From the NCBI GenBank assembly GCA_001828855.1, contig MHZT01000003.1:62001-126000 (forward strand): a DNA stretch of 64,000 nt, in the 5' to 3' direction. The notes under the pieces are model-generated. The model saw nothing but the letters and a program-made list of their open reading frames with translations, was not told the DNA's origin and did not search any database. The translations under genes were made by a program, and so were the position numbers. The number at the start of each line of letters is the position of its first letter. The first letter of the stretch is position 1. This document shows positions 1,388 through 17,197 of this stretch, in pieces. The DNA is from Rhodobacterales bacterium RIFCSPHIGHO2_02_FULL_62_130. Lineage in GTDB: Bacteria; Pseudomonadota; Alphaproteobacteria; Rhodobacterales; Rhodobacteraceae.

Positions 1388-1999
1388 TCAGACGGGTCGC
1401 GGTGTGGCTTCTGAAATCTCGTGCTGCAATCGTGCGCGGAACACATCCGGCATTGCCCAATTCGGTTGATGACCCAGCAGAAGTTGCAGGAAGCCCACGG
1501 AAAAGCCGTTGTCCTGCCGGATATTCTCGCGGAAGGACCACCATTGCCGCAGGTCGTCAAAGGCAGGGGCGACATCGGGGTGGTCGTGGAATTCCTGCTC
1601 GGCGGCGGCGGCATGCACCGTCAGGCAGAACAAGGTGCAGACATAGCCCTCGGGCCAGAAGGCGGCTGCCGAGTCTGCGGCAACATTGCGGGGGGCTGAC
1701 AGCGCCTTTAGCGGCAGATCGGCGGTGAATTCGCGCAGCATCAGACCGGCGGCAAATTCGAAATAATCCTTGCGTGCGGATTTATCGGCCGGCTTTTGCC
1801 GTTCAATGGCGCGCAGCCAGCGCACAAATATCTCGGCCAGCTTTGGCTCATCAAGGTGAAACACGCAGCCGATTTCCGCGCCCAGATCCTGCGTGAATTT
1901 CTGAAAGGCCGCGCGGAACCAGCGCAGGCGGCGCACCGAAATCCGCAGCGGTTCATTGGTGGGGGGCAGATGATATTCGGGATGCGACAGATCAGACAT
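1388..1999 (-). CDS. Conserved hypothetical protein (about 203 aa)
   Basis: I do not recognise a family. The start MSDLSHPEYHLPP overlaps the stop of the upstream gene by 8 bp (ATGTCTGA), which suggests translational coupling and makes this start more likely than the ORF-track start at 2017. The protein is helical and rich in aromatic residues, with no signal peptide and no membrane segment. It holds two His-containing stretches (EQEFHDHPDV and LLLGHQPNW) but no motif I can tie to a known enzyme. It is probably transcribed with the 1992-2660 gene. Confidence 0.6.
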   Translation of the reverse strand: MSDLSHPEYHLPPTNEPLRISVRRLRWFRAAFQKFTQDLGAEIGCVFHLDEPKLAEIFVRWLRAIERQKPADKSARKDYFEFAAGLMLREFTADLPLKALSAPRNVAADSAAAFWPEGYVCTLFCLTVHAAAAEQEFHDHPDVAPAFDDLRQWWSFRENIRQDNGFSVGFLQLLLGHQPNWAMPDVFRARLQHEISEATPRPV

Positions 2000-2660
2000 G
2001 GCTGGCAAATTCGGCATAAAGCGCGGCCAAGGCGGCAGGATCGCGGGCGGTGCAGGCGGTAGTGATATCTGCGGCCAGTGCTACAGCCAGATCGGTTGCG
2101 GCATCAAGGGCGGCCTCATCCTCGGCCTCTGGGCGCTGCGATTGCAGCCACAGCATGACGGCAAACAAAGTCACAGGCCCAATCGCGGAAGGTGTGACAC
2201 GCGCGGTCAGATCGGCGTGGCCTTTCAGGGCCTTGGCATCCTGCAGCGCCAGCGTCAGCGCTGCAGCCACTTCGGCATCGGGGGCGCTGGGCAGGCTCAG
2301 ATTCTGAAAGGCCTTGCGCGCTGCGGCCTCGCTGATGAAAAGGCCGGGCGCGTCCAGCCGCTTCAGCACGGCTTGGGTGGCGGCATAAAAGGCGGCGGCA
2401 AAGGCAAGGTCGCCATCCTGCTGGCCGGTGATCCGATGCAGGGACGGCGCTGCGGGATCGGGATTGCCCAGCACCTTTTTGGCCAGACCCGAGGCCGCGT
2501 CATCCATGCCCTTGGCAATTGCTTCGACCTCGCGCAGCACCGCTCCGGCCAGTCGGGCGGCAGGCGGCGGCAGGGTATCGACCGTCATGGTTTCCTTGAG
2601 CGTTTCGCCGCCTTTGCGAAGGACATGCCGCAGCCCGCGCAGGGCTTCGCGCAGCGGCAT
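1992..2660 (-). CDS. Conserved hypothetical protein (about 222 aa)
   Basis: I chose MPLREALRGLRHVLRKGGE as the start because the ORF-track extension to 2804 runs into the 3' part of the kinase gene and reads as non-protein-like, Arg/Cys-rich sequence. A start at MTVDTLPPP (2588) is also possible. The product is Ala-rich and helical, with no signal peptide. It overlaps the following gene by 8 bp, so the two form a pair of unknown function. Its link to the sugar-uptake operon upstream is doubtful, since about 90 bp separate it from the kinase stop. Confidence 0.55.
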   Translation of the reverse strand: MPLREALRGLRHVLRKGGETLKETMTVDTLPPPAARLAGAVLREVEAIAKGMDDAASGLAKKVLGNPDPAAPSLHRITGQQDGDLAFAAAFYAATQAVLKRLDAPGLFISEAAARKAFQNLSLPSAPDAEVAAALTLALQDAKALKGHADLTARVTPSAIGPVTLFAVMLWLQSQRPEAEDEAALDAATDLAVALAADITTACTARDPAALAALYAEFASHV

Positions 2661-2751: not shown

Positions 2752-3711
2752 TTACGCGCAACCGCGCTGCGGGGTGCGGCGGATGAAGTCAAGCGTGGCG
2801 GCATAGTCCTTCACCCCCGCCTGACTGCCCAATCCCGTCGCATTCTGCGCCGACGAGGCCTGCGCCAATTGCACTGCCTCTTGCGGCGAAAGCCCCTTGG
2901 CCAGCCCCGTGGCAAAGCCGCCGTTAAAGCAATCGCCGCAGCCGCAGGTGCATTTCACATCGACCCGAAAGGCGGGCGTGTGAAAGCTGGTGCCATCCTG
3001 CGCCAGATAGAATGCGCCCTCGGCCCCCAAGGTCAGGATCACGCAACCCGCCCCGCGATCCAGCAGAAATTGCGCCAGCGCGCGATTGTCCTGCAACCCC
3101 GACAAGGCGCAGGCTTCTTCCTCGGATGGCATGAAGTAATCGGTATAGGGCAGCAGCCGTTCCACCTTGGGCAGATCGGCTGCGGTCGAGGCGAACACAT
3201 CCAGCGTGGTGATCACACCCCGGCGTTTTGCCTCGGCCATCACCTCGGCGGTGCGGCCCGCATCATCCATCCGGTTCATCAGCCCGACACCGCCCACATG
3301 CAGGATTTTGGTATCCAGCACACGGTCGATCTGGTCATCGGACACGAAAAACCCGTCCGTCGCCCCACGTTTGTGCAGCGCGGGGCGCGCACCATCGGGC
3401 CGCGTGGTGACGATGGAACTGGAGGTGCTGAACCCCTCGCAGCGCTGCATCAATTCGGTGTCGATGCCAAAGCGCGCCAGTTTCATAAGCACCCAATCGC
3501 CCATATCGTCATGGCCGATGCCGCCAATTGCCTGCACCTTCAGCCCGTGCTTGGCCGCCACGATGCTGGCCGATCCGGCGGCACCGGACACGGCAAGGGT
3601 GAAATCCTCGACGAAATAGGTATCCCCGCCCGGCGGGATCTGCGTGACCGGACGGCAGAGGGCGTCAAAGGTGTAAAACCCCATGCAGGAGAAATCGAAA
3701 CGCGGACTCAT
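2752..3711 (-). CDS. PfkB/ribokinase-family carbohydrate kinase
   Basis: This is a 319-residue protein of PfkB length. It has the Gly-rich N-terminal substrate region (AVSGAAGSASIVAAKHG) and the C-terminal ATP/anion-hole signature, here CTCGCGDCFNGGF, where most members have DTxGAGDxF. The catalytic Asp is kept, but Cys residues replace the usual Thr and Ala. The family phosphorylates a sugar or sugar-alcohol hydroxyl with ATP. Its start overlaps the stop of the ABC ATPase gene as ATGA, so it is the last gene of the uptake operon and probably phosphorylates the imported substrate. In the model proposed here the substrate is a methyl-tetritol or a deoxy-pentulose; that is inference. Confidence 0.85.
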   Translation of the reverse strand: MSPRFDFSCMGFYTFDALCRPVTQIPPGGDTYFVEDFTLAVSGAAGSASIVAAKHGLKVQAIGGIGHDDMGDWVLMKLARFGIDTELMQRCEGFSTSSSIVTTRPDGARPALHKRGATDGFFVSDDQIDRVLDTKILHVGGVGLMNRMDDAGRTAEVMAEAKRRGVITTLDVFASTAADLPKVERLLPYTDYFMPSEEEACALSGLQDNRALAQFLLDRGAGCVILTLGAEGAFYLAQDGTSFHTPAFRVDVKCTCGCGDCFNGGFATGLAKGLSPQEAVQLAQASSAQNATGLGSQAGVKDYAATLDFIRRTPQRGCA

Positions 3712-4754
3712 GCCGCCCCCCGGATACGCTCGCCATCCTCGCCAAAGAAATACAGCCGCGCAGGGTCAAAGCCGATGCCGATGGCCACATCGATGTCTGA
3801 CCGATAATCGCGTGCGGCCTTCACTTCGACCTGTTTGCTGCCTGCCATGACCGTCAGGTAGGTCACGTCGCCAGTGGGTTCGACGCCATAAACCAAGCCC
3901 TGCACATTATCGCCCCCGACGCGGCAATCTTCGGGCCGGATGCCAAGCGTGACCTTGCCGCGCAGATGGGCGGGGCAGGGCGCGGTGATACCGGAGGCGG
4001 TAAACTTGCCATTCTGCGCGGTGCCTTCGATCAGGTTCATCGGCGGGCTGCCGATAAAACCCGCGACAAAGGTGTTGGCCGGATCGGAATAGATCTGGTC
4101 CGGCGTGCCAACCTGCTGGATCGCGCCTTGGTTCATGATCACGATGCGGTCGGCCAAAGTCATCGCCTCGATCTGGTCATGGGTCACATAGACGGTGGTG
4201 ATCTTCAACTGGCGCTGCAGATGCTTGATCTGCACCCGCATCGAGGCCCGCAGCTTGGCGTCAAGGTTGGACAGCGGCTCGTCCATCAGGAACACCTGCG
4301 GCTCGCGCACCACGGCGCGGGCAAGGGCGGCACGCTGGCGCTGACCGCCCGACAAAGCGCCGGGCTTGCGATCCAGATAGCTGCCCAGTTCCACCATATC
4401 GGCGGCGCGGCGGATCAGCTTGTCATGCTCGGAGGCCGGAACTCCGCGCATCCGCAAGGGAAAGCGGATGTTTTCGTAAATCGACATATTAGGGTAAAGG
4501 GCATAGCCCTGAAACACCATCGCCACGTCGCGGTCGCGGGCGTCAACCTCGTTCATCACCTCGGTGCCGATGATGACCTCGCCTTCGGTGGGGTGTTCAA
4601 GCCCCGCGATCATCCGCATCGTGGTGGTCTTGCCGCAGCCCGAGGGACCAAGCAGCACAAGGAACTCTTCGTCGTTGATGTCCAGAGACATGTGGCGCAC
4701 GCCGGTGAAGGCCCCATAGCGCTTGACGATATTTTGCAGGTGGATCGAAGCCAT
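3708..4754 (-). CDS. Carbohydrate ABC transporter ATP-binding protein (MalK/UgpC type)
   Basis: The 348-residue protein has Walker A GPSGCGKTTT (about residues 36-45), the signature LSGGQRQRAALARA, Walker B VFLMDEPLSNLDAKL and the switch His in YVTHDQ. A C-terminal OB-fold regulatory extension (about 235-348, with IRPEDCRVGG) is typical of the MalK/UgpC group, which energises sugar and polyol importers. It lies between the permease gene (3-bp gap) and the kinase gene (4-bp overlap). It should act as a homodimer at the cytoplasmic face of the two permeases. The transported substrate cannot be read from this subunit. Confidence 0.95.
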   Translation of the reverse strand: MASIHLQNIVKRYGAFTGVRHMSLDINDEEFLVLLGPSGCGKTTTMRMIAGLEHPTEGEVIIGTEVMNEVDARDRDVAMVFQGYALYPNMSIYENIRFPLRMRGVPASEHDKLIRRAADMVELGSYLDRKPGALSGGQRQRAALARAVVREPQVFLMDEPLSNLDAKLRASMRVQIKHLQRQLKITTVYVTHDQIEAMTLADRIVIMNQGAIQQVGTPDQIYSDPANTFVAGFIGSPPMNLIEGTAQNGKFTASGITAPCPAHLRGKVTLGIRPEDCRVGGDNVQGLVYGVEPTGDVTYLTVMAGSKQVEVKAARDYRSDIDVAIGIGFDPARLYFFGEDGERIRGAA

Positions 4755-4757
4755 TGC

Positions 4758-5618
4758 TTATCCTTTCACGGCGCCCATGGTCAGACCGCGCGACAGATGC
4801 TTCTGGATCAGGATCACAAGGATCAGGATCGGAGCGAACGCAAGGAAGGACACAAGGGCGATTGCATTGTAGATCACGCCGTCCGAGCCGCCGGTGAAAT
4901 TCGCAAGCGCCACCGACATGGTGTAGGCTTTCGAGGTCGAGGCGATAAGCAGCGTGAAGAGGAATTCGTTGATCGCAAAGATCGTGGCGATGACAGCCGC
5001 CGTGATGATACCGGGCAGGCAGGCGGGTACGATGATCTCCCACAGGATACGCAGATCACCGGCCCCGTCGGTGCGGGCGGCGTCTTCCAGTTCTTTGGGA
5101 ATATCCAACATGTAGCTGCGGATGATCCATGTCACGAGGCTCAGGTTGATCGCCGCATAGACCAGCATCAAGGCCCAGACGGTATCCAGCAACCCCATGC
5201 TGCGGAACAGAAAGAAGATCGGCACGGCCACGATGGCAGGGGCCATCATGCGGGTGGACAGGATGTAGAAGCCGATATCCTCGCGGCCCTTGAACTCGTA
5301 CCGCGACAGTGCGTAGGCGGCAGGGATCGCCAGCGCAAGGTCGATGATCACAGACCCCGACACCGCGAAGAACGAGTTCCGCATATATTGCGCGATGGGC
5401 CAATCGCTCATCAGCAGGTGCCAGGCGTCCAGGCTGAAACTGGGCCAATAGATCGGGGAGGGGGTGATGATCTCGGTACGCGGGCGGAAGGCGATGGTCA
5501 GGAACCACAGGATCGGCAGCAGGCAACACGCCGCCCATGACCCCAGCACCAGATAGCGCAGCAGCATGCTTTCGCCGCGGGATTTGCGTTTTGTGGCCGT
5601 TTTCAGGGTTTGTGGCAT
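4758..5618 (-). CDS. Carbohydrate ABC transporter permease (MalG type)
   Basis: The 286-residue inner-membrane protein has about six hydrophobic segments. The cytoplasmic EAA loop reads ELEDAARTDGAGDLRILWEI, the docking helix for the ATPase. The N-terminus (MPQTLKTATKRKSRGES) is basic and cytoplasmic. It abuts the MalF-type permease gene with no gap and precedes the ATPase gene by 3 bp, so the two permeases and the ATPase form one importer. Length and motif order fit the MalG (binding-protein-dependent transport inner membrane) family. Confidence 0.93.
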   Translation of the reverse strand: MPQTLKTATKRKSRGESMLLRYLVLGSWAACCLLPILWFLTIAFRPRTEIITPSPIYWPSFSLDAWHLLMSDWPIAQYMRNSFFAVSGSVIIDLALAIPAAYALSRYEFKGREDIGFYILSTRMMAPAIVAVPIFFLFRSMGLLDTVWALMLVYAAINLSLVTWIIRSYMLDIPKELEDAARTDGAGDLRILWEIIVPACLPGIITAAVIATIFAINEFLFTLLIASTSKAYTMSVALANFTGGSDGVIYNAIALVSFLAFAPILILVILIQKHLSRGLTMGAVKG

Positions 5619-6557
5619 TTATTTCTTCCCCGAATGGAAGGCGCGTTTCACGACTGTCTGCGCGATGACAACCGTCATCACCAGCATCAGCACCGAAGCC
5701 GCCGAGGCATAGCCAAAGTTGAACATGCGGAAACCTTGGCGATAGATGAAAAAGCTCATGGTTTCGGTGGCACCGCCGGGGCTGCCTTGGGTCATGATAT
5801 AGACGTTGGTGAACATGGTGGTGATGTCGATGCCGCGCAGGGTGATGGCGACCACGATGATCGGGCGCATCATCGGCAAAGAGATATTCCAGAAAATCGC
5901 GGGCCAGCTTGCCCCGTCAAGGCGGGCTGCCTCTTCGATCTCTTGATCCTGCCCCTGAAGGGCGGCGACAAAGATGATGAACAGGAACGGCGTCCACTGC
6001 CAGACATCGGCCACGATCAGCGTCAGGCGGGCAAGCCAGATCGACCCCAGCCAGTCGACATTCTTTGAAACGATGCCAAGGCCCAACAGGATATCCGAAA
6101 TCACCCGACCATCGTTGAAGCCCAGCTTCCAGATGAAGGCCACCGCCGAGGGCATGAACAGCATCGGCATCAGGAACACGATGCGCCAACCTTTGATCAT
6201 CGGATCACGGTAGGAAAAATAGGCCATCGTCATTGCGATAACCGTTTGCAGCACAAGAGAAATCCCGCCGATAACCGCGGTGTTTCCCAGTGCCGCCCAG
6301 AACTCTCGGTCGCCCAGAAGGCGGGTATAGTTGTCAATTCCTGCCCAGTCCCAGCCCTTGAAGGTCACCACGAACAGGCTTTGGTAAATCGCAAAGGCAC
6401 CCGGATAAAGCGTGATCGCCATCAGGTATAGAAGCGCCGGAGCTACCAGCAAATAGGGGAAAGCCTTCCGCAAAGCGGGCGACCGGCGACGCGGAGCGCG
6501 GTTGGGGGCGGCTTGCGCCACCCCCCCGGTCCGATGTGCGGGAGCAATCGCGGCCAT
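5619..6557 (-). CDS. Carbohydrate ABC transporter permease (MalF type)
   Basis: The 312-residue inner-membrane permease starts MAAIAPAHRTGGVAQ, with a basic cytoplasmic tail (PRRRSPALRKAF) before the first membrane helix (YLLVAPALLYLMAITLYPG). The EAA loop is QEIEEAARLDGASWPAIFWN. It is the second gene of the uptake operon, 3 bp after the binding-protein stop codon. The short periplasmic P2 region makes it more like UgpA-type than E. coli MalF. It pairs with the MalG-type subunit. Confidence 0.93.
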   Translation of the reverse strand: MAAIAPAHRTGGVAQAAPNRAPRRRSPALRKAFPYLLVAPALLYLMAITLYPGAFAIYQSLFVVTFKGWDWAGIDNYTRLLGDREFWAALGNTAVIGGISLVLQTVIAMTMAYFSYRDPMIKGWRIVFLMPMLFMPSAVAFIWKLGFNDGRVISDILLGLGIVSKNVDWLGSIWLARLTLIVADVWQWTPFLFIIFVAALQGQDQEIEEAARLDGASWPAIFWNISLPMMRPIIVVAITLRGIDITTMFTNVYIMTQGSPGGATETMSFFIYRQGFRMFNFGYASAASVLMLVMTVVIAQTVVKRAFHSGKK

Positions 6558-6560
6558 CGG

Positions 6561-8114
6561 TCAGAACGGCAGCGCTTTGCCGCCGCCGACGTAAGTGCCG
6601 GCTTTGACATCCGCGTATTGCACCGGTGCCTTGTCGGTGCCGAAGCCGTTCTTCGCCATGATGGCTTTCCAAGCCGCCTGACCGTTTTCAAGCGCCTCTT
6701 TGCCGGTGATCTGTCCGGTGATCGCGCGGTTGATCTCGTTGCCCAAGGCCTGTTCCATCTCGAACATGCCGGGTAGACGCGGGCTGCACCATGCATGTTC
6801 AAGGCTGTCGGACCAGACCTTCATTGGCTGCGAGACTTTCCGCAGGTTTTCGTTGGTCAGCACCGATTTATAGCCCGGAGCCACGCCATTGGCATTGGCT
6901 TCGTTCATCGCCATGATCGAGGAGGTGGTCAGGAAGGCCAGCATCAGGAAGGCGCCTTCGGGGTTCTGGCTGGTTGCCGTCACCACCGAGGTGGAACCCG
7001 CGATATTCGGCGGGGCAAAGACGCCACCCGCGATGCGCGGCTCGTAGATCGTGACGAAATCATCAACGATCTGGCTTTGGTCGGGCCGCATCGCCTGCGT
7101 GCCGCTGTCTTGCCAGCTGATGTTCGCCGCAACCTGACCGCCCAGCCAAGCCGCACGGTTCTCGCCCCAGCCTGCGCCTGCCACACCTTCGATGGCGTTC
7201 TTGGACAGCGCCAGCAGCGTATCCAGACCCTTCATCGAAGCCTCGGAGGTCAGCAGCGGGTCGAAGTTTTCGTCGAACAACTGCATTCCGGCCTGTGCTG
7301 CGATATGCTCCCATGAATAGGTGGACCAGAAGCCGCGCGCGCCCAGAAGGCCGATGCCCGCCACGCCGCCGCCCAGCTTGTTGGCTTCGGCGGTGATGCG
7401 GATCAATTCGTCATAGGTCGGAACCGAGTTCACCAGATCGATCGGGCCGCCCAGAATCGGTTCAAGCACCGATTTGCGAAGGTGGACCATCTGAATGTCG
7501 CAGTCGAACGGAATACCAACCAGTTTGCCGCCGAAATAGCCGTAGTTCAGCCGGTAGGTGTCGTGGAAATCATCCAGCGGCAGCGCCCATTTGGCGGCAT
7601 AATCGTCCAGCGGAGCCAGAAAGCCGGGACCCGCGAAATCACCCAGCCATGCCGAGAAGAACTGCAGCGCGTCGAACGAGGCATTGCCCGAGATGAATTC
7701 GGAAATCGCCTTGTCATAGATGCTGTCATCCGGGATCGGCACCAGCTCGACCTTGATACCCGACAGCGCCTCGAAGGGGGCAATCGCCACGGCAGCAGAT
7801 TCCTGATCCGCCGCACCGATGGCGAAGCGCACCGTTGTTCCGGCCAGTTCCGAGCGCACCTTTTCCCAATCGACGGTGCGAATCCAGTCTTTCGCAGGGT
7901 CCCACAGCGGGGTGTTATCCATGTTGTAAAGCTTGCGATAATCCTCGCGGACATAGCCCTCGACCGAAATCCCGTCGAGAATCGCCTGAATGTCGCCAAG
8001 GCCCGATTGGGCGAAGGCGGGCGTCTTCAGCCCGGTCACGCCAGCAGCAAGGCCAAAAGCGGTGCCGGTTCTCAGGAACGAGCGGCGGGACAGCCCACCC
8101 AGTTTCATTGTCAT
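6561..8114 (-). CDS. Tat-exported extracellular solute-binding protein (family 1)
   Basis: I chose MTMKLGGLSRRSFLR as the start. It sits behind GGGAGGATTACGA and begins a textbook Tat signal: twin-arginine RRSFLR, hydrophobic TAFGLAAGVTG and a cleavage-like AFAQ. The ORF-track start at 8273 adds sequence from the promoter region. The mature protein binds a carbohydrate-like ligand in the periplasm and delivers it to the two permeases. At 517 residues it is longer than common family-1 binding proteins (about 430). The C-terminal PGMFEMEQALGNEINRA region is typical of sugar-binding members. It is the first gene of the leftward operon and diverges from the catabolic operon. Tat export implies folding before secretion. 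Confidence 0.92.
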   Translation of the reverse strand: MTMKLGGLSRRSFLRTGTAFGLAAGVTGLKTPAFAQSGLGDIQAILDGISVEGYVREDYRKLYNMDNTPLWDPAKDWIRTVDWEKVRSELAGTTVRFAIGAADQESAAVAIAPFEALSGIKVELVPIPDDSIYDKAISEFISGNASFDALQFFSAWLGDFAGPGFLAPLDDYAAKWALPLDDFHDTYRLNYGYFGGKLVGIPFDCDIQMVHLRKSVLEPILGGPIDLVNSVPTYDELIRITAEANKLGGGVAGIGLLGARGFWSTYSWEHIAAQAGMQLFDENFDPLLTSEASMKGLDTLLALSKNAIEGVAGAGWGENRAAWLGGQVAANISWQDSGTQAMRPDQSQIVDDFVTIYEPRIAGGVFAPPNIAGSTSVVTATSQNPEGAFLMLAFLTTSSIMAMNEANANGVAPGYKSVLTNENLRKVSQPMKVWSDSLEHAWCSPRLPGMFEMEQALGNEINRAITGQITGKEALENGQAAWKAIMAKNGFGTDKAPVQYADVKAGTYVGGGKALPF

Positions 8115-8234
8115 TCGTAATCCTCCCTTTGCGCTACATTTGTCTGTTCTGCGGTCTGCCCTGCAACCCTTGCTTTGCCGAGATCTCCTCAATCGCGGCA
8201 AAAGGTTTGGAAGACCGTGAGTGAACTTTCGTTT

Positions 8235-8251
8235 CACATTGATATAATGTG
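8235..8251. promoter_or_regulatory. Palindrome CACATT-GATAT-AATGTG in the divergent promoter region
   Basis: Perfect 6-bp arms with a 5-bp spacer are seen directly. On the minus strand a TTGACA (bases 8274-8269) lies 19 bp from a CATTAT box (8249-8244), so the palindrome would overlap the -10 box of the ABC operon promoter. A candidate operator for the SorC-family regulator or another repressor; inferred. Confidence 0.45.
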
Positions 8252-8319: not shown

Positions 8320-8346
8320 TTGACATAAGAACAAATGTTCAAATAA
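8320..8346 (+). promoter_or_regulatory. Promoter/operator of the DRL-acoABC-like operon with palindrome GAACA-AA-TGTTC
   Basis: TTGACA (8320-8325) is followed by the palindrome GAACAAATGTTC (8329-8340) and then the AT-rich AAATAAC, a weak -10 candidate. An operator between -35 and -10 would give repression. The SorC-family gene at the end of the same operon is the natural candidate to bind it. The sequence is visible; the promoter role is inferred. Confidence 0.5.
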
Positions 8347-8377: not shown

Positions 8378-9697
8378 ATGCCCACCAATGTCGCCCTGAC
8401 GGGTTTGGCCAAAGATCTTGCCGCGCGTGCTGAAACGGGCCGTCCGATTCGGATCGGGCTTGTGGGTGCGGGTGAGATGGGGACGGATATCGTCAGCCGG
8501 GTTGCCCATATGCAGGGCATTGAAATCGGGGCGATCAGTGAGCTGAAGGCGGGGGCCGCGCGGAAGTCGGTCGAGATTGCTTATGGCAATGCGGATCTGG
8601 TGCGCGAAGTGTCAACCGCCGACGCCGCCAATGCCGCGATGGAAGATCGCCGAATCGCCGTCACCGACAATGTGGATGCCTTGCTTGAGGCGGGCCTGAT
8701 CGACGTGGTGGTGGATGCCACTGGCGTGCCGTCGGTGGGGGCAGAAATCGGCCTGCGCGCGATGGAGCGCGGCAAGCATCTGGTGATGATGAACGTCGAG
8801 GCCGACGTGACCATCGGGGCCTATCTGCGCGCCGAGGCCGAACGTCTGGGCGTGGTCTACAGCCTTGGCGCGGGGGATGAGCCGTCCTCCTGCATGGAGT
8901 TGATCGAATTTGTCTCGGCGATGGGGCATCGCATTGTCTCGGCGGGCAAGGGCAAGAACAATCCTCTGAACATAGACGCGACGCCCGATGTCTATCTGGA
9001 AGAAGCCGTGCGGCGACACATGAACCCGCGCATGCTGGTCGAATTTGTCGACGGCTCGAAAACCATGGTGGAGATGGCGGCCATTGCCAATGCCACCGGC
9101 CTTACGCCGGACAAGCCGGGCATGCACGGCCCTGCCTGTTCGCGGGAGGAGTTGAACTCGGTGCTGGTGCCGCAATCGGCGGGCGGGGTGCTGTCCTCGG
9201 GCGAGGGCCGCGTGGATTATACCATTGGCAAGGGCGTTGCCCCCGGCGTGTTCGTGGTGGCCGAGATGGATCACCCCCGTGTGCGCGAGCGGATGGAAGA
9301 CCTGAAGATGGGCAAAGGCCCGTATTTCACCTTCTTCCGTCCCTACCATCTGACCTCGCTTGAAGTGCCGCTGACCTGCGCCCGTGTGGCTTTGTATGGC
9401 AAGGCCGACATGGTGCCGATGCCGGTGCCGGTGGCCGAGGTCTGCGCCGTGGCTAAAAAGGATATGGCGGTGGGTGAAAGCCTTGATCAGATTGGAGAAT
9501 ATTGCTACCGCGCCTGGATCATGACCGCGCCAGAAGCCCGCTCTGCGGGGGCGATCCCTTGCGGGTTGCTGGCAGGATCGAAGGTGACCGCGCCGATCAG
9601 GAAGGGCGATCTGATCACCCGCGCCAATGCTGCGGTGCCAGCCGACAGCAAGATTGCCCTGCTACGTGCGCGGCAAGACAAAATGCTGGGCCTGTGA
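8378..9697 (+). CDS. DRL/COG4091-type NAD(P)-dependent oxidoreductase with SAF domain
   Basis: The start is ATG 8378 (MPTNVALTG) behind AGAGGAGGAATGCA; the ORF-track start at 8348 lies upstream of this site. The 439-residue protein has a Rossmann motif GLVGAGEMG near residues 27-35, the substrate-domain stretch GAGDEPSSCMELIEF, and a C-terminal SAF-like domain (about 340-439). This layout is that of the predicted homoserine dehydrogenase group COG4091. That group includes the Brucella DXR-like enzyme DRL, which converts DXP and MEP into each other. It is the first gene of an operon with acetoin-dehydrogenase-like subunits. I infer an oxidising, catabolic role on a phosphorylated branched or deoxy sugar. 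Other COG4091 substrates remain possible. Confidence 0.8.
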   Translation: MPTNVALTGLAKDLAARAETGRPIRIGLVGAGEMGTDIVSRVAHMQGIEIGAISELKAGAARKSVEIAYGNADLVREVSTADAANAAMEDRRIAVTDNVDALLEAGLIDVVVDATGVPSVGAEIGLRAMERGKHLVMMNVEADVTIGAYLRAEAERLGVVYSLGAGDEPSSCMELIEFVSAMGHRIVSAGKGKNNPLNIDATPDVYLEEAVRRHMNPRMLVEFVDGSKTMVEMAAIANATGLTPDKPGMHGPACSREELNSVLVPQSAGGVLSSGEGRVDYTIGKGVAPGVFVVAEMDHPRVRERMEDLKMGKGPYFTFFRPYHLTSLEVPLTCARVALYGKADMVPMPVPVAEVCAVAKKDMAVGESLDQIGEYCYRAWIMTAPEARSAGAIPCGLLAGSKVTAPIRKGDLITRANAAVPADSKIALLRARQDKMLGL

Positions 9698-9699
9698 TC

Positions 9700-10698
9700 A
9701 TGACCCTGCCCGACAACCGCCCCTTTGCCATCCGCCACTTCGCGCCCGCCGCCCTGCGCGAGGCGTTGAAGAAGATGTATCTGATCCGCCGTTTCGAGGA
9801 GGGGGCCGAAGACAGTTATATGCGTGGCCTGATCCACGGCACCATGCACCTGTCCATCGGGCAAGAGGCCAGCGCCATGGCGACCTGCATGGAGTTGACC
9901 GATAACGACAAGATCACTTCGACCCACCGTGGCCACGGCCATTGCATCGCCAAGGGTGCCGAGGTTGGCCGGATGTTTGCCGAGTTTTTTGGCAAAGAGA
10001 CCGGCTATTGCCACGGGCGGGGCGGCTCGATGCATATCGCCGATGTGAAGACGGGCAATCTTGGGGCCAACGGAATTGTGGGCGGGGGCTTGCCGATTGC
10101 GGTGGGCGCGGCGCTTTCGGCCAAGCGGTTGGGCAAGTCCGATGTGACAGTCTGTTTCTTCGGGGATGGGGCCAATAACGAAGGCGCTTTCCACGAGGCG
10201 CTGAACATGGCTGCCGTCTGGAAGCTGCCGGTTATTTTTGTCTGCGAAAACAATGGCTATGGCATGTCCACCTCGACCGCGCGGTCAACTGCGGTCACGC
10301 ATATTGCCGACCGCGCGGCGGCCTATGCGATGCCCGGCGTCACGGTGGATGGCAATGACTTTTCCGCCGTGGCCTTTGCGATGCACACTGCCATTGCGCG
10401 CGCGCGGGCGGGCGAAGGGCCGTCCCTGGTGGAAAACCTGACATACCGCTGGCGTGGTCACTCCAAATCCGACCGCAACCGCTATCGCAGCAAGGACGAA
10501 ATCGAAGACTGGATGACCCGCGACCCGATCGCGCGGTTCCGTGCCGAATTGATCGCGCATGGCATTCTGGACGAGGCCGGTGCCGAAGCCGTAGCCGCCG
10601 AGGCGATTGCCGATGTGCAGGCTGGCATCGAATTCGCCAGATCCAGCACCGCGCCCAGCATTTCCGAAGTGACCCGCTACGTTTACGCCGAGGTTTAA
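9700..10698 (+). CDS. acoA: Thiamine-diphosphate dehydrogenase E1 alpha subunit (acetoin dehydrogenase-like)
   Basis: About 332 residues. The ThDP motif runs from [12 protein letters not shown] to CENNGYG, and the N-terminal [18 protein letters not shown] and RGGSMHIAD segments are typical of E1 alpha subunits. The listed ORF start at 9502 lies inside the preceding gene. ATG 9700 follows the TGA of that gene by 2 bp, and GTG 9694 would overlap it as GTGA. With the beta subunit it would decarboxylate a 2-oxo acid or cleave an alpha-hydroxy ketone, passing an acyl group to the lipoyl arm of the E2 at 11712. The hydrolase-type E2 points to ketone cleavage rather than pyruvate dehydrogenase. Confidence 0.88.
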
Positions 10699-10699
10699 G

Positions 10700-11710
10700 A
10701 TGAACGCCCAAGCCCCAACCGACCTCCGCACCCTGTCCTATGCCGAAGCCATCCGCGAGGCGATGGCGATTGCGATGGAGGCCGACCCGACCGTCATCCT
10801 GATGGGCGAGGATATCGGCGTCTATGGCGGCGCGTTTCAGGTGACGCTGGACCTGATCGACCGCTTCGGCCCCGACCGCGTAATGGACACACCTATCTCG
10901 GAACTTGGCGGGGCAGGCGTGGCGGTGGGCGCGGCTTTGACCGGGTTGAAGCCGATCTTTGAATTCCAGTTCTCGGATTTTGCCATGCTGGCGATGGAGC
11001 AGATCGTCAACCAAGCCGCCAAGCTGCGTTATATGCTGGGAGGCGAGGCTTCGGTTCCTGTCGTGTTCCGTCTGCCTGCGGGATCGGGAACGGGGGCCGC
11101 GGCACAGCACAGCCAAAGCATCGAGGCGTGGTTCGGCCATGTGCCGGGGCTGAAAGTGCTGCAACCAGCCACGCCCGAAGACGCCAAAGGCATGCTTCTG
11201 GCCGCGCTGGCAGACCCCGATCCGGTGATGATCTTCGAACACAAGCTGCTGTACAAGATGAAGGGCCATGTCCCTGCGGGCAGCTACCTTACCCCCATCG
11301 GCAAGGCCTTGCTGCGCCGCGCCGGAACCGATGTGACCATCGTTGCAGGTTCGATCATGCTGCACCGCGCGCTTGAGGCTGCCGAGAAACTGGCCGCCGA
11401 AGGCATCAGCGCCGAAGTGATCGACCTGCGCTCGATCCGGCCAATCGACCATGAGACGATTCTGGCCTCGGTGCGGAAAACCGGACGCCTGATGGTGGTT
11501 TACGAAGGGGTCAAGGCCTTTGGCGTGGGCGCGGAAATCAGCGCCATGGTGGCCGAAAGCGATGCGTTCGATTATCTTGACGCACCGATCCTGCGCTTGG
11601 GGGGGGCGGATGCGCCGGTGCCATATAACCCCGATCTGGAGCGCGCTTCGGTGCCGCAGGTTGACACCATCGAGGCCGCCGCCCGCCGCCTTGTCCGCCG
11701 CGAGGTTTAA
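10700..11710 (+). CDS. acoB: Thiamine-diphosphate dehydrogenase E1 beta subunit (acetoin dehydrogenase-like)
   Basis: The 336-residue protein has the transketolase-like core ([17 protein letters not shown]) and the C-terminal E1 beta features [15 protein letters not shown] and [12 protein letters not shown]. The conserved [17 protein letters not shown] segment lies at the alpha-beta interface near the active site. It starts right after the stop of the alpha gene and is followed 1 bp later by the E2 gene, so the three are co-translated. It provides half of the ThDP site. No separate lipoyl domain is fused to it, unlike some pyruvate dehydrogenase beta subunits of this order. Confidence 0.88.
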
Positions 11711-11711
11711 G

Positions 11712-13028
11712 ATGCCGGTCGAAGTCATCCTGCCCAAAGTCGATATGGACATGACCCACGGCACGCTTGCCGTCTGGCATGTGGCCGAGGGTGAAATGGT
11801 CCAGAAGGGCGCGGCCCTGTTCGATATCGAAACCGACAAGGCCGCGATGGAGGTCGAAGCCCCCGCCAGCGGCAGCCTGCACCACATCACGGCCCAACCG
11901 GGTGACAAGGTGGCTGTCGGCACCATCGTTGCATGGCTTTACGCGAAAGACGAGGCTGTGGGGGCAGCGCCTCTGACTGCCGCTGCCAAGCAGGATGCGC
12001 CGCCGCCTGTCACTGTGGCATTGCCTGCCGACATAACGCCACCGCTTTCCGCGCCATCCTTCCCCCCGCCGCAAGCCGAAGCCTTGGCCCAACGCGCCAC
12101 ACCTTCCGCACGCCATGCCGCTCGCAGTGCTGGGATCGCCTTGGAGCGCGTGAGGGGCAGCGGCCCCTTGGGGCGGGTGCAACGCGATGATGTCACGGCT
12201 TTCCTGCAGTCTGCGCCACAAACCCCTGCCACAGCCCCATGGGTGCCACAGTCCGGCCCCTTGCATATCAGCCGCCGCAAGGGTCAAGGCTTGCCTCTGG
12301 TGTTGTTTCACGGCTTTACCGCCGACAGCCAATCCTGGGCGCCCTTGGAAAAGGCGCTGGGGCCGCAGCAGCCCCTGATCCGCATCGATCTGCCGGGTCA
12401 TGGCAAATCGCCCCGCCGCCGCATTGCCGGTTTTGCCGAATTGGCCCGCATGGTGGTCGAAGCCTTTGACGAAGCCACCCGCGAGCATGACAAGGTGCAT
12501 CTCTTGGGTCATTCGCTGGGCGGTGCCATGGCGCTGGCTCTGGCCGATATTCGCGGGCGCAAACTGGCCAGCCTGTCGCTGATCTCGCCTGCCGGATTGG
12601 GGCCAGAGGTTGATGCCGATGCCCTTGCCGGCATTGTCCGCGCCAGCCGCGCCGAAAGTCTGGCACCTTGGCTGCGACGCCTGACAGCCACGCCAGACGG
12701 CATCAGTGATGACTACGCCCGCGCCGCTATGGCCCCGCGCAAAGACCCCGCCATGCGCGCCGCACAGGCGGACATGACAGCGGCGCTGTTTCCCGACGGG
12801 GTGCAGGCCTTTGACCTGCGCCCCGCCTTGCAGCGCATCGAGGCTCCGACGCAAATCCTTTGGGGGCGGCAGGATCACATCCTGCCCTATCGCCACGCCC
12901 TTGCCGCCGACGGCGATTTCGCTATTCATCTGCTGAAGGGTGCGGGCCACATTCCCCAGATCGAATGCCCCGACAGGGTGGCGCGGATTGTGCAGCGTCT
13001 GATTGCGGGGTGCGACGCGCCCGTCTAA
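11712..13028 (+). CDS. acoC: E2-like lipoyl / peripheral-subunit-binding / alpha-beta hydrolase fusion (AcoC type)
   Basis: ATG 11712 (MPVEVILPKVDMDM) lies 1 bp after the E1 beta stop; the ORF-track start at 11520 is inside that gene. Length is 438 residues. Domains: lipoyl, residues 1-80, with the lipoylated Lys in ETDKAAMEVE (K43); a Pro/Ala linker; a subunit-binding domain, about 131-167 (ARHAARSAGIALERVRGSGP); then an alpha/beta hydrolase from about 185. Its nucleophile elbow is GHSLGG (S268), with an Asp in WGRQDHILP and a His in GAGHIPQIE. A hydrolase fold in place of the usual acyltransferase domain is known from E2 proteins of acetoin-cleaving systems. It should move the acyl group to CoA. 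No E3 gene is nearby. Confidence 0.88.
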   Translation: MPVEVILPKVDMDMTHGTLAVWHVAEGEMVQKGAALFDIETDKAAMEVEAPASGSLHHITAQPGDKVAVGTIVAWLYAKDEAVGAAPLTAAAKQDAPPPVTVALPADITPPLSAPSFPPPQAEALAQRATPSARHAARSAGIALERVRGSGPLGRVQRDDVTAFLQSAPQTPATAPWVPQSGPLHISRRKGQGLPLVLFHGFTADSQSWAPLEKALGPQQPLIRIDLPGHGKSPRRRIAGFAELARMVVEAFDEATREHDKVHLLGHSLGGAMALALADIRGRKLASLSLISPAGLGPEVDADALAGIVRASRAESLAPWLRRLTATPDGISDDYARAAMAPRKDPAMRAAQADMTAALFPDGVQAFDLRPALQRIEAPTQILWGRQDHILPYRHALAADGDFAIHLLKGAGHIPQIECPDRVARIVQRLIAGCDAPV

Positions 13029-13047: not shown

Positions 13048-14016
13048 ATGCCGCCTGCCATGCCGTCCCTCGGACCCCAAAGCGAGACTGATCGGCTGCG
13101 CGCGCGGGCGGTCTGGCTTTACCACGTCGAAGGGCTGACCCAGAACGATATCGCCACGCAACTGGGGATCAATCGGGTGATGGTGGTGCGGCTTCTGGCC
13201 GATGCGCGGCGGCGCAACGAGGTGCGGGTGACGATCTCGGCCCCATTAAGCGAGCTTATCGAGATCGAGCGCGCGCTGGAACGTCGCCACGGCATCGGGC
13301 GGGTCATCGTGGCACCGTTTTCCGATCCCGAAGGCGATCCCGTCAAGGTCATCGCTGCCGCTGCGGGAGCGTTCATCTCGGCGGAAATGAAGGCGGGCAT
13401 GACCGTCGGGGTGGGTTGGGGCCGCACACTTTATAACACGTTGCCCTTCATCTCGGGCGCGACGCTGGACGATTTCCGCGTGGTGTCGCTTCTGGGCGGG
13501 ATCGCTGCGGCCCGTCGCTTTAACCCCGCCGAATTTGCGTGGCAATTTGCCGAACTGTTTCAGGCCGAGGGCTTTCTGATCCCCGCCCCGGCGGTGGTGG
13601 ACAGCCCTGAAACCAAACATGCCCTGTTGGAACGCTGCGGTCTTTCGGCGATTTTCGAGATGGCCGACAAGCTGGATATGGCGCTGCTGTCGGTGGGCGG
13701 GATTACGACGCTGACCACCAGCTACCGCACCGGCTATCTGTCCGAAGCCGACCGCCGCTCACTGATCGACGCAGGCGCGGTGGGCGATGTGCTTTACAAC
13801 TTCATCGATGCAGCAGGGCATCTGGTGGATCACGAGGTCAACGGCCGGGTGATTTCGGCCAACCTCGCCCGCCTGCGCCGCACGCCCGAGCGTGTGCTGA
13901 TTTCCGGCGGCAAAGACAAACTTGTGGCCCTCAAGGCGGCCATCCACACCCTATCGCCAACGGTTCTGGTCACCGACGAATGTTCCGCGCGCGCTTTGGC
14001 GCAGGACAAGGCCTAA
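13048..14016 (+). CDS. SorC/DeoR-type sugar-binding transcriptional regulator
   Basis: The start MPPAMPSLGPQSETD sits behind GGAAGGAACACCC; the ORF-track start at 13003 overlaps the E2 gene. Length is 322 residues. The helix-turn-helix spans about residues 20-57 (GLTQNDIATQLGINRVMVVRLL), followed by the SorC sugar-phosphate sensing domain (GVGWGRTLYNTLP). Members usually sense phosphorylated sugars and act as repressors or activators of the operon they sit in. As the last gene of the catabolic operon it probably controls both divergent promoters. This fits a pathway with a phosphorylated intermediate made by the PfkB kinase. Confidence 0.9.
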   Translation: MPPAMPSLGPQSETDRLRARAVWLYHVEGLTQNDIATQLGINRVMVVRLLADARRRNEVRVTISAPLSELIEIERALERRHGIGRVIVAPFSDPEGDPVKVIAAAAGAFISAEMKAGMTVGVGWGRTLYNTLPFISGATLDDFRVVSLLGGIAAARRFNPAEFAWQFAELFQAEGFLIPAPAVVDSPETKHALLERCGLSAIFEMADKLDMALLSVGGITTLTTSYRTGYLSEADRRSLIDAGAVGDVLYNFIDAAGHLVDHEVNGRVISANLARLRRTPERVLISGGKDKLVALKAAIHTLSPTVLVTDECSARALAQDKA

Positions 14017-14029
14017 GCCTGCGGACGCG

Positions 14030-14446
14030 TCAGGCCCGCTTGAGCCGGATTACCACATCCACCCGCGACACCGTCATGCCTTCGGGTGCGGCAGGCAGCG
14101 CAGAGATCACCAGATCTTCGGTGGGGGCATCGGTCAGCGCGTGGCTGTCCTCCCAATAGAAATGCGGATGATCGTCCAGCCGCGTATCGAAATAGCTGCG
14201 GCTGCCATCAACCACCACCTCATGCAGCAGGCCGGCTTCGCAAAAGGCGCGCAGGGTGTTGTAGACGGTCGCAAGGCTTACCTTGTCGCCTGCCTGTGCG
14301 GCGGCGGCGAACAGCCCTTCGGCGGTGACATGCCGGTCCATGCCGTCGCCCACCAACAGCCCCGCCAAAGCCAGCCGCTGCCGCGTCGGGCGCAAACCGC
14401 CCCGCGCCAGCCATTCCGTGCTATGCCGTTCCGTCGTGATATTCAT
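14030..14446 (-). CDS. irr: Fur-family iron response regulator Irr
   Basis: About 138 residues from MNITTERHSTEWL; a GTG at 14473 (MGNGKAGWP) is the alternative start. The winged helix (RPTRQRLALAGLL to KVSLATVYNTLRAFCEAGLLHEV) is Fur-like. The metal/heme region reads DTRLDDHPHFYWEDS, so the rhizobial HHH heme-binding motif is only HPH here, as in other Rhodobacter-type Irr proteins. There is no CxxC zinc site. It is divergent from fabA, a gene order I know from Rhodobacteraceae. It would control iron and heme genes elsewhere. A different Fur-family role cannot be excluded. Confidence 0.78.
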   Translation of the reverse strand: MNITTERHSTEWLARGGLRPTRQRLALAGLLVGDGMDRHVTAEGLFAAAAQAGDKVSLATVYNTLRAFCEAGLLHEVVVDGSRSYFDTRLDDHPHFYWEDSHALTDAPTEDLVISALPAAPEGMTVSRVDVVIRLKRA

Positions 14447-14592
14447 GGGCCATCCCGCCTTACCGTTCCCCACTATAAAGGACCGCCGCCCGGATATTCA
14501 AACGAAAACCCAACCGCGCCCCCGGCCTTGCTTCCCAACCCCCCCCGATGTTACAGACAAAATCAAAGGGCAGGGCTACTGGAGGGGCAGAC

Positions 14593-15102
14593 TTGGGCGG
14601 TTATCCAACTTCGTTCAGCAAGGACGATCTTCTGAAATGTTCGCGCGGCGAGCTGTTTGGCCCCGGCAACGCGCAACTTCCCGCGCCGCCCATGCTGATG
14701 ATGGACCGCATCACCGAGATTTCGGGCGATGGCGGCGAACATGGCAAAGGCCATGTCATAGCAGAATTCGATATCACCCCCGACCTATGGTTCTTTGACT
14801 GCCACTTCCCCGGCAACCCGATCATGCCGGGCTGCCTTGGCCTTGACGGGTTGTGGCAGCTGACCGGCTTCAACCTTGGCTGGCGCGGCTGGCAGGGGCG
14901 GGGCTATGCGCTGGGTGTGGGTGAGGTCAAGCTGACCGGCATGGTGCGCCCTGACCGCAAGATGCTGACCTACCGCGTCAATTTCACCAAGGCGCTGCAA
15001 ACCCGCCGCCTGACCATGGGTGTGGCGGATGGTATCGTCGAAGCGGATGGCGAAGTGATTTATATCGTCAAAGACATGAAAGTTGCGCTGTCGGAAAGCT
15101 GA
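14593..15102 (+). CDS. fabA: 3-hydroxydecanoyl-ACP dehydratase/isomerase FabA
   Basis: FabA dehydrates 3-hydroxydecanoyl-ACP and isomerises trans-2- to cis-3-decenoyl-ACP, the entry to unsaturated fatty acids. The active-site His and Asp are in [21 protein letters not shown]. The ORF-track start (14548) adds a non-conserved [19 protein letters not shown] at 14593 just after GGAGGGGCAGAC gives [11 protein letters not shown] and a length of 169 residues, which matches the family, so I take TTG as the start. It heads the fabA-fabB-fabI operon and diverges from irr. Confidence 0.93.
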
Positions 15103-15134
15103 TCCGGCCTGCATACAAGTTTAGGGAGAACGCC

Positions 15135-16364
15135 ATGCGTCGCGTCGTCATCACCGGTATCGGCATTATTTCCTCGATCGGCAACAATGCCACCGAGGTC
15201 GAGGCGTCGCTGCGCGCTGGCAAATCCGGCATCGTTTTTGCGCCGGACTATGCCGAGCATGGCTTCCGCAGCCAGGTCCACGGCATGCCGCAGATCAAGC
15301 TGGAAGATCATATCGACAAGCGCGACCTGCGGTTCATGGGGCCGGGGGCGGCCTATAACTTCCTTGCGATGCAGCAGGCGATTGCCGATTCCGGTCTGGC
15401 ACCCGAAGATGTGTCGAACGAACGCTCGGGCCTGATCATGGGGTCGGGCGGGCCTTCCACCTCGAACTTCTTTCAGGCCTTTGATGCGGTCATCAACAAG
15501 GGCGCACCCAAGAAGATGGGGCCGTTCATGGTCACGCGCTGCATGTCGTCGACCAACTCGGCCTGCCTTGCGACCCCGTTCAAGATCAAGGGCGTGAACT
15601 ATTCGATCACCTCGGCCTGCTCGACCTCGGCGCATTGCATCGGCAACGGCACCGAACTGATCCAGATGGGCAAGCAGGACATCGTTTTCGCCGGCGGCGG
15701 CGAGGAACTCGACTGGACGTTGTCTTGCCTGTTCGATGCGATGGGCGCGATGTCGTCGAAATACAACGACACGCCCGAAACCGCTTCGCGCACCTATGAT
15801 GCGACGCGGGACGGTTTCGTGATCGCAGGCGGCGGCGGTGTCGTGGTGCTTGAGGAACTCAACCACGCCCTTGCGCGCGGTGCGAAGATCTACGGCGAAG
15901 TCACCGGCTATGGTGCGACTTCTGACGGTTACGACATGGTTGCGCCCTCGGGTGAGGGCGGCGAACGCTCAATGCGGCTGGCGCTGTCCACGCTGCCCGA
16001 AGGTCGCCATGTGGACTATATCAACAGCCACGGCACTTCGACCATGGTGGGTGATGTCACCGAGATGGAGGCGATCCGCCGCGTCTTTGGCCGGGGCCAG
16101 ACCCCGCCCGTGGCTTCGACCAAATCGCTGACCGGCCATAGCCTTGGCGCGACCGGCGTGCATGAGGCGATCTATAGCCTGTTGATGATGCAGGGCAATT
16201 TCATTGCCGCCTCGGCCAACATCACCACGCTGGACCCGGCGCTTGATCCGTCGGAAATCGTGACCACGCTGCGCGAGGGCGTCGCTTTGGATTCGGTGCT
16301 GTCCAACAGCTTTGGTTTTGGCGGCACCAACGCGACCTTGGTGATGAGCAAGTATCTGGGCTGA
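15135..16364 (+). CDS. fabB: 3-oxoacyl-ACP synthase I FabB
   Basis: The 409-residue condensing enzyme has the Cys nucleophile in [12 protein letters not shown] and the two active-site His residues in [11 protein letters not shown] and [12 protein letters not shown]. It elongates cis-3-decenoyl-ACP with malonyl-ACP, which commits the chain to unsaturated products. It follows fabA by 32 bp with AGGGAGAACGCC ahead of the start. The fabAB pair marks the anaerobic-type unsaturated fatty acid route. Confidence 0.95.
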
Positions 16365-16408
16365 CCAGCCCGGATTTTTCGCAGAGAATCGTTTGATCGG
16401 AGGCGTCA

Positions 16409-17197
16409 ATGCCGGAACTGATGAAGGGCAAGCGCGGGCTTGTCATGGGCGTCGCCAATGAACGCTCGATCGCATGGGGCATCGCCTCGGCGCTTGCTGC
16501 CGAAGGCGCGGAACTGGCGTTTTCCTATCAGGGCGATGCGTTCGGCAAGCGGGTGCAACCGCTGGCGGCCTCGGTTGGCAGTGATTTTCTGGTCGATGTC
16601 GATGTGATGGACGAGGCGTCGATGGACGCCTGTTTTGCCGCGCTGAAAGACCGTTGGGGGACGATTGATTTCGTCATCCATGCCATCGCCTTTTCCGACA
16701 AGAACGAGTTGACGGGGCGTTTCATCAACACCTCGCTGGCCAACTTCAAGAATTCTCTGGCGATTTCCTGCTTTTCTTTCATCGATGTGGCCCGCCGCGC
16801 GTCCGAGTTGATGCCGGATGGCGGCAGCCTGATAACGCTGACCTATGCCGGTTCCAACCGCGTCACACCCAATTACAACGTGATGGGCGTTGCCAAGGCG
16901 GCACTGGAAAGCTCGACCCGCTATCTGGCCAATGACCTTGGCCCGCAGCAGGTGCGCGTCAACGCAATCTCGCCCGGACCGATGAAAACGCTGGCAGGTG
17001 CCGCCATCGGCGGCGCGCGCGCCACCTTCCGCCACACCGAAGCAAACGCGCCGATGCGGTCCAATGCGACGCTGGAAGCAATTGGTGGCACCGCTGTCTG
17101 GCTTTGTTCCGACTACGGCGCCTGCACCACGGGCGAGGTGGTGCATGTGGATTCGGGCTATCATGTGCTGGGTATGCCGCAGCAGGAAAACCTGTGA
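16409..17197 (+). CDS. fabI: Enoyl-ACP reductase (NADH) FabI
   Basis: The 262-residue short-chain dehydrogenase-like protein begins MPELMKGKRGLVMGVANERSIAWG, with the FabI-type nucleotide site GVANERSIAWG. The catalytic Tyr and Lys are in NYNVMGVAKAALE (Tyr-x6-Lys spacing), and the C-terminal SGYHVLGM is typical of FabI. It reduces trans-2-enoyl-ACP in the last step of each elongation cycle. It starts 44 bp after fabB behind GGAGGCGTCA, and a clear terminator follows it, so it closes the operon. FabI is the usual target of triclosan-type inhibitors. Confidence 0.95.
   Translation: MPELMKGKRGLVMGVANERSIAWGIASALAAEGAELAFSYQGDAFGKRVQPLAASVGSDFLVDVDVMDEASMDACFAALKDRWGTIDFVIHAIAFSDKNELTGRFINTSLANFKNSLAISCFSFIDVARRASELMPDGGSLITLTYAGSNRVTPNYNVMGVAKAALESSTRYLANDLGPQQVRVNAISPGPMKTLAGAAIGGARATFRHTEANAPMRSNATLEAIGGTAVWLCSDYGACTTGEVVHVDSGYHVLGMPQQENL

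Follow-up and report, generated by a model that had tools for sequence, protein, structure and literature searches.

Here we present evidence that a gene cluster in Rhodobacterales bacterium RIFCSPHIGHO2_02_FULL_62_130 probably encodes a pathway for the catabolism of 2-C-methyl-D-erythritol, or of a close stereoisomer, arranged around a type II DXR (DXR-II, or DRL). The cluster lies in a 64,000-nucleotide stretch of contig MHZT01000003.1, which we refer to as the window. In the pathway that we propose, an ABC importer would take up 2-C-methylerythritol, and a PfkB kinase, replaced elsewhere by a PTS, would convert the polyol to 2-C-methylerythritol 4-phosphate (MEP). DRL running in reverse would then oxidise and rearrange MEP with NAD+, giving 1-deoxyxylulose 5-phosphate (DXP) and NADH. 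Finally, an AcoABC-like complex, together with a housekeeping E3, would cleave DXP with CoA and NAD+ into acetyl-CoA, glyceraldehyde 3-phosphate and NADH, so that all five carbons would enter central metabolism with no CO2 lost, while a SorC-type regulator would control both divergent operons. Because the DXR equilibrium favours MEP, the irreversible AcoABC step would have to pull the reverse reaction.

Judged by its sequence characters, the central gene is confirmed as a true type II DXR, which is in line with the DRL-family identity suggested in the initial annotation. The reading frame (8378..9697, + strand) is intact, encodes 439 amino acids, and its product is a predicted MEP:NAD+ oxidoreductase (isomerising). 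The product scores 224 bits with the PF21135 (DRL_cat) profile, whose cut-off is 27, and the source genome has no other PF21135 gene. Its structural relatives in the PDB are solely the Brucella DRL entries 3UPY and 3UPL (E=1e-199), and it is 70.1% identical to 3UPY over the whole length. The substrate-anchoring and dimerisation residues described for DXR-II, which in Brucella numbering are E174, F178, K191, K193, T229, R320 and Y322 (PMC3847144), are all found in the window enzyme, and the same seven are invariant in 93 of 93 aco-linked copies. The DLO1/DLO2 oxidoreductases (PMC3847144) share the PF21135 fold family, but T229 is absent from the sampled DLO members, as are K193 and R320 from most of them. 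In the trees, the window enzyme falls within DXR-II, where its neighbours are aco-linked copies of the Rhodobacter group, and not among DLO or homoserine-dehydrogenase-like sequences; a placement among the latter would have told against the original proposal. Homoserine dehydrogenase was rejected as an identity, since the NF004976 match reaches 19 bits against a cut-off of 205. The closest known enzyme is the DRL of Brucella abortus (3UPL, 3UPY; PMC3847144), which has the same catalytic, substrate-anchoring and dimer residues; however, that enzyme groups with copies unlinked to aco genes and serves isoprenoid synthesis in the absence of DXR-I, whereas the window DRL sits in a catabolic-type operon of a genome that also has DXR-I.

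The surroundings of the gene agree with the earlier description of a catabolic-type operon beside a sugar importer. On the + strand, DRL is followed by an E1-alpha gene (AcoA-like, from a predicted DXP-cleaving thiamine-diphosphate complex; 9700..10698 with its ATG at 9700; PF00676, 298 bits), an E1-beta gene (AcoB-like; 10700..11710; PF02779/PF02780; NF006667, 402 bits), an E2 gene (AcoC-like; 11712..13028) with lipoyl (PF00364), E3-binding (PF02817) and alpha/beta-hydrolase-fold (PF12697) domains, and a SorC/DeoR-type regulator with a sugar-binding domain (13048..14016; PF04198, 174 bits), whose best NCBIfam matches, DeoR and LsrR, both fall under their cut-offs. Divergent from DRL on the - strand are an ABC solute-binding protein of CUT1 type (6561..8114; PF01547), a UgpA-like permease (5619..6557), a MalG/UgpE-like permease (4758..5618), a UgpC/MalK-like ATPase (3708..4754) and a PfkB-family carbohydrate kinase (2752..3711; PF00294, 137 bits), the predicted 2-C-methylerythritol 4-kinase, and after these come two conserved genes, hypY (1992..2588, in an open reading frame that extends to 2804 with the start probably at 2588) and hypX (1388..2017). 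The cluster joins uptake and phosphorylation modules to SorC-type regulation in the manner of operons for polyol catabolism that have a CUT1 importer or a glucitol-type PTS (Gut); where those operons continue with a dehydrogenase and an aldolase, it continues with a reductoisomerase and a predicted acyloin-cleaving complex. In the divergent region of 263 bp, the inverted repeat TGAAC-N4-GTTCA occurs twice, with one or two mismatches; both copies are kept in close relatives and are putative SorC operators, GTGAACTTTCGTTTCAC at 8221..8237 and GAACAAATGTTC at 8329..8340, shortly after a TTGACA box at 8320. These putative operators are conserved across the Rhodobacter-group loci and not beyond, and a universal SorC operator was rejected as the repeat is clear in that group only. 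Further along the window, at 14030-17197, a Fur-family regulator (-) is followed by fabA-, fabB- and fabI-like genes (+), which are ordinary fatty-acid genes outside the cluster.

Among other genomes, the 80 nearest loci include about 68 with the order DRL-acoA-acoB-acoC, a recurrence that makes chance linkage untenable. For a fuller count of gene context, we compared 72 linked loci, each with at least 5 kb on both sides, with 41 unlinked DXR-II loci and 11 DLO loci; the survey drew on nearest relatives with some redundancy among them, so the counts should not be taken as independent. Around the constant core, the uptake module changes: 16 of the 72 linked loci have an ABC importer with PfkB, 30 a glucitol-type PTS (in many cases including a dedicated enzyme I), three a PTS with PfkB, eight PfkB alone and one an MFS transporter with an FGGY kinase, and in 14 none was seen within the stretch available. 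Neither a PTS nor ABC with PfkB was seen in any of the 41 unlinked loci, three of which have an FGGY kinase, and none of the 11 DLO loci has aco, PTS, ABC+PfkB or any such module as neighbours. Annotated plasmids tell a similar story of exchange, with DRL-aco beside ABC+PfkB, lpdA and lipA in Agrobacterium and S. meliloti, and beside a PTS in Pseudoroseomonas, Terrarubrum and R. rhododendri, in the last of which the cluster adjoins thiC-O-S-G; lpdA, lipA and thi genes thus join some of the DRL-aco clusters. In Priestia, DRL is found with MFS, FGGY and E1/E2/E3 genes, the E1/E2 genes lying several genes upstream. This swapping of uptake and phosphorylation modules around a constant DRL and E1/E2 is the pattern expected of a catabolic pathway whose common starting point is a phosphorylated polyol.

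One set of loci speaks against the model. In the Firmicutes, which were sampled through plasmid records only, four loci from Listeria, Ligilactobacillus and Enterococcus carry DRL with a glucitol-type PTS and SorC-type regulators, and no aco or E1/E2 genes were found nearby, so that the disposal of DXP is not accounted for there. In the Ligilactobacillus locus, genes for fructose-6-phosphate aldolase and transketolase come next. A further variant occurs in M. amorphae and Pararhizobium, in which a DRL of 54-55% identity lies by an FGGY kinase and a SorC-type regulator without aco genes.

Besides the enzymes, one protein family travels with the DRL-aco pathway. The hypX product belongs to a family of about 210 amino acids with no Pfam or NCBIfam match, and it is encoded in 55 of the 72 linked loci, in none of the 41 unlinked loci and in none of the 11 DLO loci. 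Across 398 genomes of the phylum, hypX was found in 11, all of which have DXR-II; six of these are verified as aco-linked, and in four more hypX and DXR-II share a contig, some 5-12 kb apart. Its AlphaFold model is confident (pLDDT 85.7) and helical, and a fold search against the PDB gave no match below E=1.4. The adjoining hypY, likewise with no Pfam or NCBIfam match, is more variable and is conserved in many linked clusters of the ABC type.

The E1 and E2 genes resemble those of an acetoin dehydrogenase closely enough that the operon could be taken for an ordinary acetoin or sugar operon with DRL as an unrelated passenger. The window has the full architecture of such a complex (E1-alpha, E1-beta, and an E2 with lipoyl and hydrolase-fold domains), as represented by the AcoABC genes of Acinetobacter, and its E2 scores above the acetoin dehydrogenase cut-off (NF011457, 339 bits against 307). 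The E1-alpha, however, does not group with genuine AcoA. In the tree, 33 DRL-linked E1-alpha sequences form their own clade (96/96), apart from the PDH of the source genome, from a second E1 of the same genome and from an AcoA encoded beside an acetoin reductase gene; the members of this clade were all taken from DRL loci, and one AcoA with acetoin neighbours (Acinetobacter) is in the tree. The DRL-linked sequences share the basic residues R42, H46, H165, K256 (K or R) and R259, of which K256 and R259 are within the GHSxSD loop, and their group-specific columns include six basic residues against two acidic ones. A phosphate on the substrate may explain these residues and could bind at the GHSxSD loop. 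Moreover, no acetoin or butanediol genes were seen near the window operon, and the linkage is kept across families with three different uptake modules. Taken with the clade, these observations leave hardly any probability to the passenger explanation. For the DXP-cleaving complex that we favour, there is a chemical precedent in the opposite direction: 1-deoxyxylulose is a product of purified PDH acting on pyruvate and glyceraldehyde (PMC3424233), and acetoin dehydrogenase is cited in the same paper for the formation of 1-deoxyketoses, which makes the reverse cleavage of DXP plausible chemistry.

A different explanation would keep DRL in isoprenoid synthesis as a second enzyme, for dosage or for fosmidomycin tolerance, with AcoAB helping to make DXP. 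For eleven members of the DXR-II family, complementation of a dxr mutant has been reported (PMC3847144), and in three genomes an aco-linked copy is present alone, with no dxr. The source genome, though, encodes a canonical dxr in an intact frame on another contig (TIGR00243, 413 bits), just as had been expected from the window, and it has ispG as well; the window DRL is not its sole DXR, and isoprenoid synthesis should not need it. The earlier view that the gene is accessory also holds, because a genome of the same genus lacks DRL, and carriers are patchy in the family: when one genome per genus was sampled later, 18 of 299 carried DRL, the window genome included. Linkage to an importer, a kinase or PTS, a SorC regulator and an E2, and the NAD-type site described below, further count against a second biosynthetic enzyme, and we hold that explanation to be very improbable.

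The division of labour with DXR-I can be followed across genomes. In a set of 55, DXR-II is exclusively aco-linked in 16 of the 17 genomes with DXR-I, and an unlinked copy is present in 35 of the 38 without it (Fisher 5e-10, kinship ignored). The 17 other carriers of the family sample follow the same rule, with a linked copy in 11 of 11 that have DXR-I (one with a partial dxr) and an unlinked copy in six of six that do not. In phylogeny-corrected tests, two to four independent pairs agree and none is contrary; with so few pairs, significance was not reached. The Brucella DRL is 93% identical to unlinked Ochrobactrum copies and about 75% to linked ones. Two functional DXR-II paralogs each have been described in O. 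anthropi and M. loti (PMC3847144), and in the sampled relatives of both, one of the two copies is aco-linked. The initial annotation had also raised the idea that the aco-adjacent sequences form their own clade, and here the tree gave a different answer, as linked and unlinked copies are interleaved. A single clade of aco-linked DRLs was rejected, at least 11 switches being forced by the starred branches; the clade signal belongs to the partner E1-alpha, not to DRL.

What does follow linkage within DRL is the cofactor site. In Rossmann folds, the residue directly after beta-2 is the usual determinant of NAD or NADP use. Since the AlphaFold model of the entire window DRL is poor (pLDDT 58), we used only its confident N-terminal Rossmann part, in which beta-2 spans 48-54. 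An acid at 55 followed by an aliphatic residue at 56 is found in 61 of 61 copies linked to aco or PTS (E55-L56 in the window DRL), and this NAD-type pair is missing from 27 of 37 unlinked copies (Fisher 3e-16, uncorrected for kinship). Here, too, two to four independent pairs agree and none is contrary, which is short of significance. The Brucella enzyme carries the NADP-type A55-R56-R57, residues that the window DRL does not have, and other unlinked examples are T-R-R in Mesorhizobium and T-R-T in two genomes of 1.5-1.6 Mb (G125 and G404). The ten unlinked copies that keep the NAD-type site, which weigh against the model, are mostly Phyllobacterium near-duplicates (E-L). We read the acid at 55 as a probable sign of NAD+ use in the catabolic direction.

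The same pathway logic might apply to another substrate, such as a different 2-C-methyltetritol (2-methylthreitol, for example) or a branched polyol such as apiitol, and we consider this unlikely while giving it some weight. The identity and stereochemistry of the polyol are not readable from sequence; a close characterised relative of the kinase was looked for and none was found, and the binding protein has distant sugar-binding relatives only, its best in the PDB including 5iai and 4rya, the latter annotated for sorbitol. In addition, isoprene aerosol contains both 2-methylthreitol and 2-methylerythritol (PMC5765163). Set against this, the window DRL has the same residues at the DXP site as proven DXR-II, and a methyl-ketose is a fitting substrate for a complex of acetoin type. 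In Phyllobacterium genomes without DXR-I, the linked copy hardly differs from the unlinked copy of its own genome, which argues for the same DXP/MEP chemistry. The complete genome G323 has ispG and no DXR of either type apart from its aco-linked copy, which makes DXP and MEP the probable substrates of the linked enzymes.

We found neither a methylerythritol catabolic pathway nor a catabolic role for DXR-II described in the open-licence literature. The 2013 paper on DXR-II raised the question of how an enzyme redundant with DXR-I could have arisen and noted DXR-II in bacteria without other isoprenoid genes (PMC3847144), and a 2026 review describes its distribution as without a defining pattern beyond overrepresentation among certain pathogens (PMC13001223). 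A catabolic role, if true, would answer both the redundancy and the distribution questions, and may explain why bacteria with the ordinary enzyme keep DXR-II. On balance we favour the broader view that DXR-II is catabolic at its root, part of a widespread and horizontally mobile 2-C-methylerythritol pathway with NAD+, hypX and a dedicated DXP dehydrogenase complex, and that it was recruited several times to isoprenoid synthesis, with a shift to NADP, where DXR-I was lost. The presence of DXR-II alone would then not reveal the isoprenoid route of a bacterium. The pathway, if real, would be a new sink for the 2-methyltetrols formed from isoprene in aerosol (PMC5765163) and for plant methylerythritol (PMC11049974 cites papers on hemiterpenoid glycosides of leaves), and many annotations of acetoin dehydrogenase and homoserine dehydrogenase would be wrong.

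Several other E1/E2 clusters were seen along the way. The source genome has a second E1-alpha/E1-beta cluster (contig C10, 8000-22000) with a GlpD-like oxidase, a stand-alone E2 catalytic domain, a class II aldolase, a SorC regulator, an FGGY kinase, a lipoyl-synthase-like gene and a binding protein of a Peripla_BP_4-type importer, and this is perhaps a sister pathway that cleaves another ketose phosphate. In Agrobacterium, S. meliloti and Shinella, the DRL-aco cluster is itself followed by GlpD-like genes. A C. difficile plasmid encodes E1/E2/E3 with a SorC-type regulator, its E1-alpha having three signatures in common with the DRL-linked clade (HGT, FHE and GHSKSD), and this complex may not be an acetoin dehydrogenase. 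Finally, one operon of a Shinella plasmid, located near a sugar importer, combines E1-alpha/E1-beta with a transaldolase-family gene, an AcoC-type E2 and lpdA, and is a candidate for another sugar-linked acyloin-cleaving complex.
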